Shown piece by piece: positions 7,348-64,000 of a DNA stretch of 64,000 bases. Position 1 is the first letter of the stretch. Every line of letters starts with the position of its first letter. The notes beneath the pieces were generated by a model that was given only the letters and a program-made list of their open reading frames with translations, was not told the origin of the DNA and made no database searches. The stretch comes from Archangium sp. (GTDB lineage Bacteria; Myxococcota; Myxococcia; Myxococcales; Myxococcaceae): NCBI GenBank assembly GCA_030695565.1, contig JAUYRZ010000058.1, positions 1 through 64,000 on the forward strand, read 5' to 3'. Position numbers and translations under genes: made by a program.

Positions 7348-7523
7348 TGCGCCGGAGGCCCCGCGCCCGACTCGCGGGGCGCCCGTGCGTCTGCCCTCGC
7401 GGCACACAGCCCCTCCGAGAGTTTCATGGCCGGCTCCCAACGTCTTCTCGGCCACCCTCACACCCCAGGACTTCGCGAGCTCTCTGGCGTGCCCTCTCGG
7501 ATTTGCCCGGGTTGTTTCACTTG
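7010..7523 (+). mobile_element. IS91-like element, 3'-end copy 2
   Basis: Second copy of the 3' end, nearly identical to 5137-5651 and ending at the same CTTG (7520-7523). It starts about 15 bases further into the transposase than copy 1, so the two 5' breakpoints differ while the 3' end is fixed. This is what one-ended or repeated rolling-circle events, or recombination between ends, would leave behind. Confidence 0.75.
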
Positions 7524-8033
7524 CCCGTGGCGGGCCAGCCGGCGGTTGAGCTGGTGAATCGTCACCCAGTGCAGCAGCCAGAGCGCCAGCGCGGTGACGC
7601 TCGCGATTTCGCCCCACACCGAGGGCCACAAGGCAAGGGCCTGCCCGGAACACCACCCCAGGCCCGTGAAGCGGCCGAAGTGGCGCACGGAGCCGAGCCT
7701 GGGGTCGATTCGGGCCTGGGCTTCGAGTGAGCGCGTGACGGCCTCGATGATGAAGAAGTCTTCGACGATGTTGAAGAACGGCACGTACATGAACCAGACA
7801 GACGCCGGCTTCATCGCGCGCAGCCCGGGCGTCACGAGGGTGAGCGCGCGCTCCAACGAGGAGCAGTAGAGCGCGACGGCGGCGAAGAAGACGGCGGTGC
7901 AGAACAGAGCGGGCAACACTCCGAACGAACGCACGGTCTCGATCACCCCGTCGCCGTCGACGAACCAGGGCCGCAGCATCAAGACGGTCACCACCGCGGT
8001 GCCGGCCCCCTTGACGAGCCAGACCTTCTTCAT
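7458..8033 (-). CDS. DUF4328-like membrane protein with element-derived C-terminus
   Basis: Integral membrane protein, 191 residues, with four or five hydrophobic helices and the conserved-looking segment FMYVPFFNIVEDFFIIEAV, which resembles DUF4328-type proteins. The native sequence ends near LARHG (about 7524). The last ~22 residues, GQVKQPGQIREGTPE and following, are translated from the reverse complement of IS91-like copy 2, so the gene has been cut at its 3' end and read into the element. Loss of the natural C-terminus probably impairs or alters the protein. It lies 6 bases downstream of the AraC-type gene and is likely co-transcribed with it. Confidence 0.6.
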   Translation of the reverse strand: MKKVWLVKGAGTAVVTVLMLRPWFVDGDGVIETVRSFGVLPALFCTAVFFAAVALYCSSLERALTLVTPGLRAMKPASVWFMYVPFFNIVEDFFIIEAVTRSLEAQARIDPRLGSVRHFGRFTGLGWCSGQALALWPSVWGEIASVTALALWLLHWVTIHQLNRRLARHGQVKQPGQIREGTPESSRSPGV

Positions 8034-8940: not shown

Positions 8941-9161
8941 TCAGGACGTTCGCAGCTCGGGAATGTCGCCGGTGACTTCACCCAGCTGATCCGTGTTCAG
9001 GCCGACCGCCTTCATGGCCGTCACGATCACGTTCGCAGGATGTTTCCCCGCGGCCACCACGTGCTGCCCCGGAGACAACCCACCCGCGCGGCCCGCGAGC
9101 ATGCACGCCATGTTCTCCGTCGAGTGCGAGCTGTTGTCGCGCAGCCCTTCGGGATCCCAGC
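8941..9161 (-). pseudogene. C-terminal fragment of a DUF1552 protein
   Basis: The minus frame reads LRDNSSHSTENMACMLAG, then RAGGLSPGQHVVAAGKHPAN and MKAVGLNTDQLGEVTGDIPE, which matches the end of DUF1552 proteins (secreted proteins common in Myxococcota and Planctomycetes, often beside DUF1592 proteins). The front of the gene is gone; the break coincides with IS91-like copy 3 at 9162. The open frame continues into the element and gains a non-native start. No function is expected. Confidence 0.6.
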
Positions 9162-9278
9162 CAGCCCCTCCGCGAGTTCCATGGCCGGCTCCCAACGTCT
9201 TCTCGGCCACCCTCACACCCCGGGACTTCGCGAGCTCTCTGGCGTGCCCTCTCGGATTTACCCGGGTTGTTTCACTTG
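9162..9278 (+). mobile_element. IS91-like element, solo 3' end (copy 3)
   Basis: Only the last 117 bases of the repeat: CAGCCCCTCCGCGAG through GGTTGTTTCACTTG at 9278. It is closer to copy 2 than to copy 1 in the middle part (CTTCTCGGCCACCCTCACACC). It carries no transposase sequence and separates the DUF1552 remnant from the CopD-like remnant. Confidence 0.72.
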
Positions 9279-9575
9279 TCCGTGCATCGGCATTCCGGCG
9301 CTGGTGACGCAGATCATCACCGGTGCGTGGCTCGCATTGGGTTTGCTGCCAGCCGCGAGCTGGTTCGACACGAGTTCACCCATCGCCCGCGCGGTGATGC
9401 TCAAGCTGGGCCTGCTGGCGTGCACCGCGTTGTTGGCCGTCGACGCGCGGCTGCGCATCATTCCGCGGCTGACGCCCGAGCGCCCGGGGGCCTCGCGCTC
9501 CACATCATTCCGGTGACGGTGTTCTCGGTGCTGTTCGTGCTGGCCGGCGTGTTGTTGCGTTTCGGCGGACTGTGA
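9279..9575 (+). pseudogene. CopD-like membrane protein, 5'-truncated and frameshifted
   Basis: Frame 1 from 9280 reads IPALVTQIITGAWLALGLLP and VMLKLGLLACTALLAVDAR, then RIIPRLTPERP; frame 3 continues GLALHIIPVTVFSVLFVL and ends LLRFGGL. Together they resemble the last membrane helices of CopD-family or putative copper-export proteins. The join falls in a GGGGG run near 9487, so a one-base indel or sequencing error is involved. The 5' part is missing where IS91-like copy 3 ends. Non-functional on present evidence. Confidence 0.5.
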
Positions 9576-57976: not shown

Positions 57977-58315
57977 TCAGAAGAGGGCTGAAGGGCGATG
58001 AACGCTCGCGCGCCGACGCTTCGGTTCCGAGACGAAGCTGACGGTTTTCTTGGCTGCTTGTGCGAGAGCAATGAGGGTTCGATAGGTGGGATTGGCTTGC
58101 CCCCGTTCGATGCGACTGATCTCGCTCTGTTGGACGCCGGAGGCCTTTGCCAGTTGCTGCTGGGTCCAGCGCTGGCTCCTTCTCAGTTGAATGACCTCGA
58201 GTGCGAGTCGGAAGTGCTCGCCGTAGGCAGCGAAGGCCTCCGCCCTTCCGGCCTCGGTGCTCTCCTTCTCAACTTCCTTCATGAACTCATCGAAGTCGTT
58301 CTTGCGCTTGCTCAC
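57977..58315 (-). CDS. XRE-family antitoxin (HigA-type)
   Basis: 112 residues. A helical N-terminus, then the HTH_3 domain at about 40-95 (RRSQRWTQQQLAKASGVQQS, SEISRIERGQANPTYRTLIA). Second gene after the RelE/HigB-like toxin, as in HigBA systems. The GTG start at 58315 has GGAGG 7 bases upstream. A promoter with perfect -35 TTGACA and a palindrome lies directly upstream (58337-58361), so it can be made independently and probably represses its own promoter. Basic C-terminus (KRRRASVHRPSALF). Confidence 0.85.
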   Translation of the reverse strand: MSKRKNDFDEFMKEVEKESTEAGRAEAFAAYGEHFRLALEVIQLRRSQRWTQQQLAKASGVQQSEISRIERGQANPTYRTLIALAQAAKKTVSFVSEPKRRRASVHRPSALF

Positions 58316-58336
58316 GGCGATCCTCCGATCCGAGGA

Positions 58337-58361
58337 TTATGGGTAGAGCCCATAATGTCAA
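58337..58361 (-). promoter_or_regulatory. Antitoxin promoter with palindromic operator
   Basis: Read on the minus strand: TTGACA (58361-58356, consensus -35) directly followed by the perfect inverted repeat TTATGGG-CTCTA-CCCATAA (58355-58337). The palindrome contains an AT-rich -10-like CATAAT, though the spacing is short. Placement in the 58-base gap between toxin and antitoxin genes suggests autoregulation by the XRE protein. Confidence 0.55.
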
Positions 58362-58373
58362 GGCGAACACCAA

Positions 58374-58847
58374 CTAGTCCGCCTGACGTGACCTCCACTT
58401 GGCGAGGCGGGCCCTCGCCTCGCCAATCTCACGATCCTGCCGCTTCTTGCTGGTGTCCTCGCCCTTGTCGTATCCACCAAGGAGCAGGATCAGCTTCTTC
58501 CCGTGGGCGTGGCAGAACACCCGGAGCAGGAGCTCCTCAGGAGGCAGCTTCTTGCCGCCCTTCTCGGCACCAATGTCGCCGGGCTTGTGACGAAGCCTGA
58601 ACTCAAACAGTCCCTTGCCGAGCTGTTTGCCGAACTCCGTCGCGCAGACGTCGATTCCGAGTGTCTGCAGGATCTCGTTCATCGCCTGACCCAGCACCTG
58701 CTTCTTGGTGAGGCTCAGGCCTCGAAGCCATTCGAGGACGAGCTGCTTACCGTCATCATCGACATAGAACTCGAGCTCGAAGCGACTCTTCGGGTCCGAA
58801 ACCTCTACCTTCCCGGATTTTGTCACCGCGGTCTTCTTGGCCACCAT
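58374..58847 (-). CDS. RelE/HigB-type toxin (phage-derived Gp49-like family)
   Basis: 157 residues. FELEFYVDDDGKQLVLEWLR opens the fold; LGKGLFEFRLRHKPGD and LLLRVFCHAHGKKLILLLGG contain the conserved strands and basic residues of Gp49-like/HigB mRNA interferases, ending DREIGEARARLAKW. It has a ~20-residue insertion (KPGDIGAEKGGKKLPPEE) between the last two strand pairs compared with short HigB proteins. Toxin-first gene order with the XRE antitoxin supports a HigBA module. Expected activity: ribosome-dependent mRNA cleavage. Confidence 0.82.
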   Translation of the reverse strand: MVAKKTAVTKSGKVEVSDPKSRFELEFYVDDDGKQLVLEWLRGLSLTKKQVLGQAMNEILQTLGIDVCATEFGKQLGKGLFEFRLRHKPGDIGAEKGGKKLPPEELLLRVFCHAHGKKLILLLGGYDKGEDTSKKRQDREIGEARARLAKWRSRQAD

Positions 58848-58895: not shown

Positions 58896-59633
58896 TCACA
58901 GGAGCTTCAGCACGACGTTCTGCACGAGGTCGTCGATGTGTGCCTCCGCCTGTGCCTGGCCGAACACGATCGCCGAGGGGTGCGCCGCCGAGTTCCGCTT
59001 GTCGAGCTTCTCGTCGAGCATCTTCTTGAGGTCTGCCCCGATGAACCCGGCTGCGCGACAGACCTGAATGATGTGCGCCTCCTTCGCGTCAGCGAAGTCC
59101 TCTCGGTTGAACACCACGAACGGCTTCTTGAACGTCGTCGGCCACGCTGCGTTGAACGCCGCCAGATGATTCTTGAGGACCCACTGCAGCAGGTGGTCGT
59201 ACGCAAGATTCCAGCTCATGACGATCGCCGCACGATACGCCCCAGCGCCGAAACACTTGATGGTCTCGTCGAGGAACGCCCGCTCGGCCACATGGGGCAC
59301 CTTCGCGGGCAGCTCCTGGAGCAGCTTGGTGACGCTGATCGCCGTCGGGCGCTGCCCATACTTCGCGTCGAACTCCAACCGCAGCCTCCGATCGAGTGAG
59401 AGCTTCTTCGCCTTCCTGATCAGCTGCTTCTGTTCGACGAGTTGGGTCACAAGCTGCGAGATGTTCGAGGGCGGGGTGAGGTTGAGGCGCTCGTAAGCGC
59501 GCCGGAACTCGCCGACCTCGTAGTCCGGCCGTGCGTCGAGCGCGTGGTAGTACCAGCCAATAAAGCGGATCCGCTGGGTGTGACCCCAGCCCTCGAACTC
59601 CGGCACCTGCCGAACGAATTCCTCGATGGCCAC
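58896..59633 (-). CDS. HEPN-type putative ribonuclease, second gene of coupled pair
   Basis: 245 residues from GTG 59633. Residues about 1-95 look like tandem winged-helix segments (FRRAYERLNLTPPSNISQLV). The C-terminal half (about 115-245) is helical with CFGAGAYRAAIVMSWNLAYD and then KRNSAAHPS, in which Arg213 and His218 form the RX4H motif of HEPN RNases. HEPN domains act in toxin-antitoxin, abortive infection and RNA processing systems. The gene starts 2 bases after the stop of 59636-60277, so the two are tightly coupled. The longer open frame upstream is antisense noise. Family assignment is by motif and fold pattern only. Confidence 0.6.
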   Translation of the reverse strand: MAIEEFVRQVPEFEGWGHTQRIRFIGWYYHALDARPDYEVGEFRRAYERLNLTPPSNISQLVTQLVEQKQLIRKAKKLSLDRRLRLEFDAKYGQRPTAISVTKLLQELPAKVPHVAERAFLDETIKCFGAGAYRAAIVMSWNLAYDHLLQWVLKNHLAAFNAAWPTTFKKPFVVFNREDFADAKEAHIIQVCRAAGFIGADLKKMLDEKLDKRNSAAHPSAIVFGQAQAEAHIDDLVQNVVLKLL

Positions 59634-59635
59634 GG

Positions 59636-60277
59636 TCAGTCCCTCTGCGGCAGGCGAGCGACGCACTGTTCGCCGTTGCTGTGCAGCTCCCAATCCCCGG
59701 CGGGGTTCTGTACGAACTGCTTGTTCTTCATATTGCGGAGGGGCTGCCCGACATCCTTGGGGACCTTCCACTCGAGGGCAGTGAAGCAGCTGTAGAGGTG
59801 GTCGTTCGTCAGGGCCTTGATGCCGAGCTCCTTCCTGAGCCACGACGCGCACACCATGTACTTCTCGTTGTTCGACTCCGGTCGCTTGGCCTCTGCGAAG
59901 ACACGCAGGTTCGGAGTTCCCTTCTCGAGGTCGAGGCCTTCAACCAGCTTGCAGTTCGGATAGGACCGCTTCTGCCTGGTCCTCGAGACTTCCACTTCGG
60001 ACTCGACCTTCGCTTCGCTCGGAGCAGCGCCTTCGGCCTCTTCGGGAGCGACGACTTCGTCGAAGAGGTCACCGTTCTTGGGCGCGAGTGGCTTGGCCTG
60101 CACATCCGGTGCGATAGCGCGCGGCTGAGGAGCGCCATTCACGATCCTCACGTGGTCCTTCGAGAACGCCGCGGTGACGGTGCGGAGGCCCTCGAGGATC
60201 GCGCTGCTTCCGCCTTCGACGTCGATCTCCATGTAGCGGACCTTCACGCGGCCGCGGTCGTTGGTTTGAGGCTTCAT
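59636..60277 (-). CDS. Hypothetical partner protein of the HEPN gene
   Basis: 213 residues, ATG at 60277 with AGGAG upstream. Layout: N-terminal ~45-residue domain (KVRYMEIDVEGGSSAILEGL), an acidic Pro/Ala/Glu-rich linker (about 65-105) and a C-terminal domain with ASWLRKELGIKALTNDHLYS and FTALEWKVPKD that may be a winged helix similar to the first part of the HEPN protein. No catalytic motif. It is the first gene of a two-gene unit and could be an RNA/DNA-sensing or neutralising partner. Function not recognised. Confidence 0.6.
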   Translation of the reverse strand: MKPQTNDRGRVKVRYMEIDVEGGSSAILEGLRTVTAAFSKDHVRIVNGAPQPRAIAPDVQAKPLAPKNGDLFDEVVAPEEAEGAAPSEAKVESEVEVSRTRQKRSYPNCKLVEGLDLEKGTPNLRVFAEAKRPESNNEKYMVCASWLRKELGIKALTNDHLYSCFTALEWKVPKDVGQPLRNMKNKQFVQNPAGDWELHSNGEQCVARLPQRD

Positions 60278-60415: not shown

Positions 60416-62012
60416 CTCGGCCCAGGGGGTGCACGACCAGATTGAGGGAAGCCCGCAATTCTGAGGGGATCGACAAGGGCGCAAGCGGCGTGATCTACGC
60501 GGCGCATGAGCCGACGCCGGAAGCCCTACACGCCCGCGACCAGCACCACGCCGCCCAACGATGGAACCCCGCTGGGTGGCCTCAGCGACGCCGACCTTCT
60601 GCGAGAGGTCGCACGTCGACGCCTGACCAAGGGGACGTTCGACATCGACGCCATCGCGGAACTCGCCACGGCCGCGCAACGCGACCTGGGAGAAGAGACG
60701 TTGGCTGCGGCGATCGCCGCGCTGCCGCCTGAAGACGACAAGCCCAAGGCGTGTCCGAAGTGCCTGCAGCTGGTGCCCGTGAAGGCGAAGAATCGGCTGC
60801 GCCACATCCTGACGACTGCGGGGGAGCTGCGCCTGACGCGGAACTACCACTACTGCAGCGACTGCGGCCGTGGCTTCGCGCCGCGCGACGCAGAGCTCAA
60901 TCTGCCCGAGGAAGGGGAAGTCTCGAGCGCGATGGAGAGGCGCATTCTCGACTTCGGCGTCAATGACACCTTCGAGTCCGTCGCTGAGCGATGGAGCATC
61001 CACTTCCCGACGAGCATCTCGTCGAACCTGGTGCGGCGGGTGGTGGACCGCGTCGGCCTGCGCTGTGAGTCAGCGTACAGCGATGAGGCGCTGCAGATGG
61101 CCTGCCGCGAGAAGCCGGAAGAGCCGCCCTCAATGCTGACGGTGGCGACGGACGGCAGCATGTTGCTGACGCGCGAAGCGAACTGGAAAGAGGTGAAGGT
61201 GGGCGTTGTCGCTCGGGGAGGATTCATCCCGCCGGGCGAGGAGCGACAGCGCCGACGCATCGAAGATGCGCGCTATGTCGCGGTGCTGGGCGGCCAGCCT
61301 GAATTCAAGAAGGGTATGGCGGCGGCGCTCGCAGTCGAACGCGCAGATGAGGTCGGCACCGTCGTCTGGCTCGGTGATGGTGCGCGTGAGAACTGGACCC
61401 TCGCCACTGAACTTTGCCCACTCGCCATTCAGGTGCTCGACGTGCCGCACGCGGTGCACTGGGGAATGCTCTGCGGCAAGGTGCTGCTTGGCGAAGGGCA
61501 CTGCCTGCTTCCGCAATGGGAGGCGCGAATCCACGAGCTGCTCGACGCCGACTCGCCAGAGTCAGCCATCGGGGAGCTGATGGACTGTCTAGAATTCGCG
61601 ACGACTGCCGAGCACCTCGCCGCACTCGATGATGTCGTCGGCTATTACCGCTCGAACGAGAAGCGCATGCAGTACCGAACCTTCCGGAGCATGGGTCTTC
61701 CGGTCGGCTCAGGCATCGTCGAGAGCGCACATCGCCACGTGCTTCAGGTGCGAATGAAGCGAGCGGGCCAGCGATGGGGATTGGTGCGCGCCCGCCGCAT
61801 GGTCCGCCTTCGTGCCGTCTACCGCACCGCTGGGGCGGTCCGTTTCCACTGGGCCATCAGGGAGGGCCTCAACGCCTCCACGGCGAAGCACAAGAACCAG
61901 CTGCTACCCAACGCGCCACGCCGCGCGAAGCACCGCTACACCCCAAGTCGATTCAGCTCGCGCAACCGGGCAGCTGCCGCCTCAAAGTGATCCTGCACCC
62001 CGGCCCAGGATC
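60416..62012 (+). mobile_element. ISKra4-family insertion sequence
   Basis: About 1.6 kb containing one transposase gene. Candidate imperfect terminal inverted repeats: GGCCCAGGGGGTGCACGA (60419-60436) and, as the reverse complement of 61990-62009, CCTGGGCCGGGGTGCAGGAT; GGGGTGCA is shared exactly. Exact ends and a target duplication could not be fixed. The transposase is intact, so the element may be active. Confidence 0.7.
60506..61990 (+). CDS. ISKra4-family transposase
   Basis: 494 residues, full length for the family. A zinc-binding N-terminal part (CPKCLQLVPVKAK ... YCSDCGRGFAPRDAE) is followed by a DDE catalytic core: TVATDGSM (Asp), VVWLGDGARENW (Asp) and PVGSGIVESAHRHVLQVRMK (Glu). 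The C-terminus is basic. The start ATG at 60506 is about 85 bases inside the left end. No frameshift or truncation is seen. It inserted between the HEPN pair and a lipoprotein gene. Confidence 0.92.
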   Translation: MSRRRKPYTPATSTTPPNDGTPLGGLSDADLLREVARRRLTKGTFDIDAIAELATAAQRDLGEETLAAAIAALPPEDDKPKACPKCLQLVPVKAKNRLRHILTTAGELRLTRNYHYCSDCGRGFAPRDAELNLPEEGEVSSAMERRILDFGVNDTFESVAERWSIHFPTSISSNLVRRVVDRVGLRCESAYSDEALQMACREKPEEPPSMLTVATDGSMLLTREANWKEVKVGVVARGGFIPPGEERQRRRIEDARYVAVLGGQPEFKKGMAAALAVERADEVGTVVWLGDGARENWTLATELCPLAIQVLDVPHAVHWGMLCGKVLLGEGHCLLPQWEARIHELLDADSPESAIGELMDCLEFATTAEHLAALDDVVGYYRSNEKRMQYRTFRSMGLPVGSGIVESAHRHVLQVRMKRAGQRWGLVRARRMVRLRAVYRTAGAVRFHWAIREGLNASTAKHKNQLLPNAPRRAKHRYTPSRFSSRNRAAAASK

Positions 62013-63630: not shown

Positions 63631-64000
63631 ATGACCACGAGCGCTATCGATTGGAATTGGCCAGGGGCGCGCTGGTGGAGGTTCGATCTTCATGTCCATT
63701 CGCCGCAGTCGAGTGACTGGCGGGGCGACGCTTCGGCGACCCCTCAACAGTGGGTCGAGGCCGCCGTTGCTGCTCGCCTGCACGCAGTAGCCCTTACCGA
63801 TCACAACAGCTCCGGCTGGGTGGACAGAGTGAAGGCGGCAGCCGCAGGTCGCTTGGCTGTCTTCCCGGGAGCGGAGATTACAACCGACAGCGGGGCTCAC
63901 CTCCTCGTTATCCTTCCCGAAGAGGCGGACGGCGGGCGGGTTGCCGGAGTCCTGGGTGCTTGCGGCGTAGACCTTGCCCACCCGCAGAACGCACAAGCGC
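63631..64000 (+). CDS. PHP-domain protein, 3'-truncated by window end
   Basis: The first 123 codons of an open frame. ATG 63631 is preceded by AAAGGA. Metal motifs of the PHP phosphoesterase fold are present: FDLHVHSP (HxH), ALTDHNSSGW (DH), PGAEITT (E) and LAHPQN. The opening GARWWRFDLHVHSPQSSDW with TPQQWVEAA resembles PHP domains fused to AAA/SMC-like ATPases in defence-type proteins, but the rest of the gene is outside the window. A plain PHP phosphatase is also possible. Confidence 0.75.
   Translation, partial: MTTSAIDWNWPGARWWRFDLHVHSPQSSDWRGDASATPQQWVEAAVAARLHAVALTDHNSSGWVDRVKAAAAGRLAVFPGAEITTDSGAHLLVILPEEADGGRVAGVLGACGVDLAHPQNAQA

Follow-up and report, generated by a model that had tools for sequence, protein, structure and literature searches.

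Two adjacent genes of Archangium sp. probably, though with some reservation, form a two-gene anti-phage module of an abortive-infection or toxin-antitoxin-like type, in which a predicted HEPN RNase is controlled by a winged-helix (wH) partner protein. In prokaryotic immunity, HEPN RNases commonly serve as the executioner, and how they are controlled is in many cases not known. The controlling partner in the present pair would represent an uncharacterised winged-helix family that has no model in the libraries searched; its winged helix is homologous to one found within the effector protein, and it is common to proteins that precede other nucleases. The unit is small, and it can therefore be tested directly in laboratory strains.

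The pair is located in the window, i.e., the whole stretch of 64,000 nucleotides that was analysed, and its features are listed in Table 1. The sequence-only reading that drew attention to it had described two open reading frames, a HEPN gene starting 2 bases after the stop of its partner, and a KRNSAAHPS stretch with Arg213 and His218. Both frames were found on the minus strand, the open reading frames of the window confirm the 2-nt spacing between partner stop and HEPN start, and the motif is present.

Table 1. Features of the gene pair and of its surroundings in the window.
Feature	Position	Strand	Basis or remark
wH-HEPN protein gene	58896..59633	minus	GTG start, 245 aa
Partner gene	59636..60277	minus	ATG start, 213 aa; immediately precedes the HEPN gene
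HEPN protein, winged-helix domain (residues 12-93)	59355..59600	minus	AF2 model; VIA-align: DtxR/MntR/PadR-type winged helices
HEPN domain (residues 110-245)	58899..59306	minus	VIA-align; Dandelion HEPN profile match
RX4H motif, R213-N-S-A-A-H218	58980..58997	minus	No variation at R213, N214, H218 and P219 among 23 homologues
Partner, N-terminal beta/helix element (about residues 11-40)	60158..60247	minus	Alignment; AF2 pLDDT about 71-82, helix 24-39
Partner, acidic, mostly disordered linker (about residues 44-110)	59948..60148	minus	Sequence; AF2 pLDDT about 40-51 (residues 41-90)
Partner, C-terminal winged helix (residues 124-213)	59639..59908	minus	hhalign; AF2 pLDDT >90 over most; VIA-align
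HigBA-like toxin-antitoxin genes (flanking, same island, outside the two-gene unit)	57977..58847	minus	Profile matches
ISKra4-family transposase (flanking)	60506..61990	plus	Profile match
Ppl/TrlF-type PHP-ABC anti-phage ATPase, start only	63631..64000	plus	Gene extends beyond the window; truncated at 64862, where the contig ends

The AlphaFold2 (AF2) model of the HEPN protein, built from an alignment of 22 homologues, has a mean pLDDT of 90 and comprises two domains. The C-terminal one is an all-helical bundle whose best match among solved structures is the HEPN protein 2hsb (Z 11.8, 111 residues, rmsd 2.7; VIA-align); further HEPN chains rank near the top, including the HEPN domains of Csm6', AbiA and MntA-HepT. 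The N-terminal one matches the winged helices of DtxR, MntR and PadR. The model of the partner is less uniform (mean pLDDT 76), with a confident C-terminal winged helix, a disordered acidic middle part, and an N-terminal helix that is likely preceded by a strand. When the two winged helices were compared, hhalign gave a probability of 96.7 and an E-value of 3.6e-10, and control comparisons of other domain pairs gave no signal, which indicates that the C-terminal winged helix of the partner and the N-terminal winged helix of the HEPN protein are homologous. Thus, the HEPN-type bundle, the acidic linker and the likeness between the two proteins that had been suspected from the sequence were all borne out. 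Foldseek searches of the PDB with either full model returned wH or unspecific matches alone (E >0.03), probably owing to the multidomain nature of both models, whereas VIA-align resolved both domains of the HEPN protein as well as the winged helix of the partner.

A first scan with the HEPN protein as a single query gave no match in the genome collection. Matches in Hyalangium, Anaeromyxobacter and an Ochrobactrum plasmid were obtained from a search of 195 Myxococcota genomes and of plasmids, and the alignment of these three sequences with that of the window recovered 20 loci when 84,980 species genomes were searched, together with one viral contig. Altogether 30 HEPN homologues were found, in Myxococcota, Cyanobacteria, Gemmatimonadota, Alphaproteobacteria and IMG/VR contigs, a set that includes the later loci L063, L065, L070 and L083-L086; there was no match in the E. 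coli genomes searched or in the INPHARED phages. The pattern R-N-x3-H-P is kept in 30/30 of them, and the RX4-6H motif that marks the HEPN superfamily occurs in all homologues, distant ones included. Since R213, N214, H218 and P219 are invariant in the 23 homologues that were aligned, down to 27% identity, the RX4H motif is not a chance occurrence.

The association of the two genes is equally constant. In the loci recovered with the HEPN gene alone as bait, the partner was found directly upstream wherever the contig reaches the upstream side, at junctions ranging from -14 to +11 nt, i.e., adjacent or overlapping in the manner of type II toxin-antitoxin modules in general. Once the later loci are added, the partner is present in 29/29 loci that allow a check. 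The conserved pairing that a survey of genome neighbourhoods was expected to reveal is therefore present, and homologues lacking either the RX4H residues or the partner were not found. Conversely, the partner was matched in 19/20 source genomes, in each at a single place, beside the HEPN gene; the match of L019 consists of two pieces. In this locus of Bradyrhizobium forestalis (7392-8005), the partner is split by a frameshift and the HEPN gene looks intact. Among 397 Hyphomicrobiales genomes, the five with a full-length match to the HEPN profile also match the partner profile. The distance matrices of the two proteins are strongly correlated (Mantel r 0.90, no shuffle as high). The full pair is sporadic, being present in 3/195 Myxococcota genomes and about 5/397 Hyphomicrobiales genomes. 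One cyanobacterial partner (L013, 7118-7993) carries an N-terminal double zinc ribbon.

Attempts to name the proteins through Pfam, NCBIfam, PADLOC and PHROGs yielded weak or sub-threshold matches only, and neither protein has a convincing counterpart among the models of Pfam, NCBIfam or PADLOC. The best PHROGs match, phrog_27609 (E 1.8e-6, function unknown), is restricted to the HEPN region. PF18735 (RiboL-PSP-HEPN) and DUF4145 (PF13643) each match the HEPN domain weakly in 8/23 members, with best E-values of 1.6e-4 and 0.017, respectively; the window protein is not among the eight for PF18735, and it scores 13.9 bits with DUF4145 against a gathering cut-off of 23.1. These families share with the pair weak sequence similarity in the HEPN domain, and they differ in that the proteins described here have no endoRNase L-PSP fusion and possess a distinct wH fusion and a partner. 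The HEPN domain is also detectably related to those of Dandelion (PDB 9wx2, 9wxf; profile E 0.0011, HEPN region only) and PD-T7-3 (PADLOC; E 0.004, 38 residues only), and neither match extends over the full length. Dandelion (460 aa) and PD-T7-3 (a model of 432 positions) are larger, were matched only N-terminally, and no winged helix was matched there.

The closest parallel in organization is the HEPN-MNT (HepT-MntA) system, which likewise consists of two genes, with a putative antitoxin upstream of a RX4-6H HEPN protein, and whose HepT structures 6m6u and 5yep match the HEPN fold with Z 8.7-8.8. In contrast to that system, the partner here is modelled as a winged helix and has no meaningful Pfam, NCBIfam or PADLOC match, to a nucleotidyltransferase or otherwise, and the HEPN protein has an N-terminal winged helix of its own; as there is no minimal nucleotidyltransferase, filing under HEPN-MNT was rejected. 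The 2013 HEPN survey describes wH fusions in EC042_2821 and MTES_1575, and MNT or ParA partners (PMC3710099). According to the same survey, the EC042_2821 family similarly fuses a winged helix to HEPN and occurs in restriction-modification (R-M) contexts, and its proteins combine wH, HEPN and restriction-endonuclease domains, whereas the pair has neither endonuclease nor zinc ribbon and has a separate partner gene (PMC3710099). A wH partner with a wH-HEPN protein is not described in the sections of the survey consulted (PMC3710099), and no earlier description was found in the open literature, a search that covered few of the subscription papers and preprints.

The genomic setting is one of mobile elements and defence genes. 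In the window, the pair is flanked on one side by a HigA-like HTH gene (HTH_3, 2e-14) and a Gp49/HigB-like gene (6e-5, just under cut-off), and on the other by the ISKra4-family transposase gene (4.6e-60; 203.9 bits against a cut-off of 205). The PHP gene at 63631 corresponds to the N-terminal 410 aa of a TrlF/Ppl anti-phage PHP-ABC ATPase (L010, 3632-4861), cut by the contig end, and makes the end of the window a defence island. The position between HigBA and an insertion sequence, with a PHP gene nearby, had been read correctly from the sequence. The GC content of the pair is 62.8%, below that of every 1382-nt segment sampled in positions 1-57000 (mean 67.3, sd 1.6). Rfam and tRNA scans of the window found nothing.

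Elsewhere, with gene calls made by a simple script, neighbours of the pair include a type I R-M system (L014), Hma (L029), DRT UG17 with SLATT (L021), DUF4238 (L006) and an N6/N4 DNA methylase (L028), in addition to the Ppl/TrlF gene of the window. Its carriers are plasmids (L006; L013, near a ParA gene), five IMG/VR contigs of 33-45 kb and, in L016, a region that resembles a prophage and contains a terminase gene. The occurrence of the pair on mobile elements and in defence islands was recorded locus by locus. In L084, L085 and L086 the pair occupies the same site, on the strand opposite to terminase, portal and, judging by sequence, prohead protease genes. Defence genes carried as cargo by temperate phages are typically placed in this manner, on the opposite strand beside terminase and portal genes, and we infer that the placement in these three loci is that of such cargo. 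The fixed phage site beside the terminase suggests that the pair arms lysogens against competitors. Because the pair is conserved and travels on prophages, plasmids and defence islands, a role in anti-phage suicide or as a toxin-antitoxin system is the likeliest, and this mobile, defence-related setting supports the toxin-antitoxin or anti-phage interpretation given in the sequence-only reading.

A conserved element precedes the pair in eight rhizobial-type loci (L015, L017, L019, L022, L024, L025, L027 and L070). It reads GAAC-N7-(A/C)AAC and is situated 83-105 nt upstream of the partner start, immediately 5' to a CTTG box, and its background frequency is 0.014 per 200 nt; L019 and L023 also contain a perfect GAACN7GAAC about 150 nt upstream. 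The element resembles the alphaproteobacterial LexA site, the consensus in Caulobacter being (T/A)TGTTC(N6)TGTTC (PMC13384398). Its second half is imperfect, and it could therefore equally be the partner's own operator.

The HEPN fold, the invariant RX4H residues, the constant pairing, the correlated distances and the homologous winged helices all argue for an anti-phage module, as do carriage by phages and plasmids, the defence neighbours, the sporadic distribution and the low GC content; against it, the winged helices may have no role beyond regulating transcription, and the frameshifted partner next to an intact HEPN gene in L019 is hard to reconcile with a HEPN toxin that kills constitutively unless an essential antitoxin is present. 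In the mechanism proposed, the partner would be made first and would bind the HEPN protein, with the homologous winged helices providing at least part of the contact, and in this complex the RNase would be neutralised or held poised. A phage signal (DNA or a protein) perceived by the winged helices, or else disappearance of the partner, would then free or activate a toxic HEPN dimer, which would cut RNA through R213/H218, so that growth would stop before the phage multiplies, thereby conferring protection. By analogy, the pair is considered to work like HEPN-based toxin-antitoxin and Abi systems. The antitoxin-first gene order and the disordered linker favour an inhibitory role for the partner, and the frameshifted partner of L019 beside an intact HEPN gene, together with the shared winged helix, favours a role as sensor. 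It is possible, if doubtful, that the module operates strictly in the latter way, the HEPN protein being inactive alone and switched on by the partner together with invader nucleic acid. The relationship of the two winged helices would suggest a joint nucleic-acid-binding platform, a frameshifted partner would be harmless, three-gene variants bring in yet another wH protein, and pP_pnuc_1 nucleases, too, have a wH protein resembling the partner upstream. Nevertheless, the antitoxin-first order is typical of toxin-antitoxin systems, and inhibition is also compatible with the data.

The same gene order, along with the tight coupling of the genes and a partner that joins a disordered acidic linker to a DNA-binding-type domain, would also be expected of a plain type II addiction pair, whose partner neutralises the HEPN protein and represses the operon via its winged helix, and which stabilises prophages and plasmids with no specific anti-phage role. 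Carriage by plasmids and phages and the conserved promoter-proximal element of the rhizobial loci are in keeping with such a pair. We nevertheless regard it as unlikely, given that the HEPN protein has the same winged helix, which is unusual for a bare toxin, and that other defence systems are found as neighbours. In addition, the frameshifted partner and intact HEPN gene of L019 argue mildly against neutralisation by the partner. Finally, the HEPN protein might bind or process RNA as a non-toxic regulator, in an ordinary accessory operon under the control of the wH partner. Some HEPN families may act without catalysis, according to the 2013 survey (PMC3710099), and the wH domains do resemble transcription regulators; yet the HEPN domains regarded as non-catalytic lack the motif, which here is invariant in every homologue, and the distribution is strongly mobile and sporadic, making this role very improbable.

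More distant loci show related arrangements. Three-gene units with an extra upstream wH-like protein occur in L064, L068 and L078, and L079 has a partner-like gene followed by a wH-HEPN gene. In L066 (2246-3777) and L067 (6288-7603), the gene directly upstream of a predicted pP_pnuc_1 (PF18165) nuclease (E 1e-12 and 2.5e-11) codes for a protein whose winged helix is related to that of the partner. This unit is likely a parallel system; unlike in the pair, its effector showed no similarity to the HEPN profile and its wH protein has a helical N-terminus. In L069 a wH protein precedes a gene with an RNYIHPH motif, and L081 has an HTH-like protein upstream of a short HEPN. Single-sequence hhalign of the L069 and L066 effectors against the HEPN profile gave no informative signal, and because of this the second gene of L069 is called HEPN-like from its motif only. 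Tentatively, the pair might found a modular phage-borne class in which two or three homologous wH proteins sense an invader and switch interchangeable RNA- or DNA-cutting effectors (HEPN, pP_pnuc_1 and others).

The surroundings of several loci hold further features. Units lie beside uvrA in L024, L070 and L064, and beside nrdJ, for a B12-dependent ribonucleotide reductase, in L019 and L066; these sites are possible integration hotspots common to the pair, the three-gene form and the wH + pP_pnuc_1 form. In L021, a small HEPN-like protein with the motif RNLIAHN (9083-9529) adjoins the pair and the DRT UG17/SLATT system. L009 (4839-7689, G060) encodes a 500-aa protein with an N-terminal HEPN domain, preceded by a gene that appears DUF3800-like by eye from its YLDESGNTGD motif; NCBIfam has no model for either gene, and the two possibly constitute another HEPN pair.
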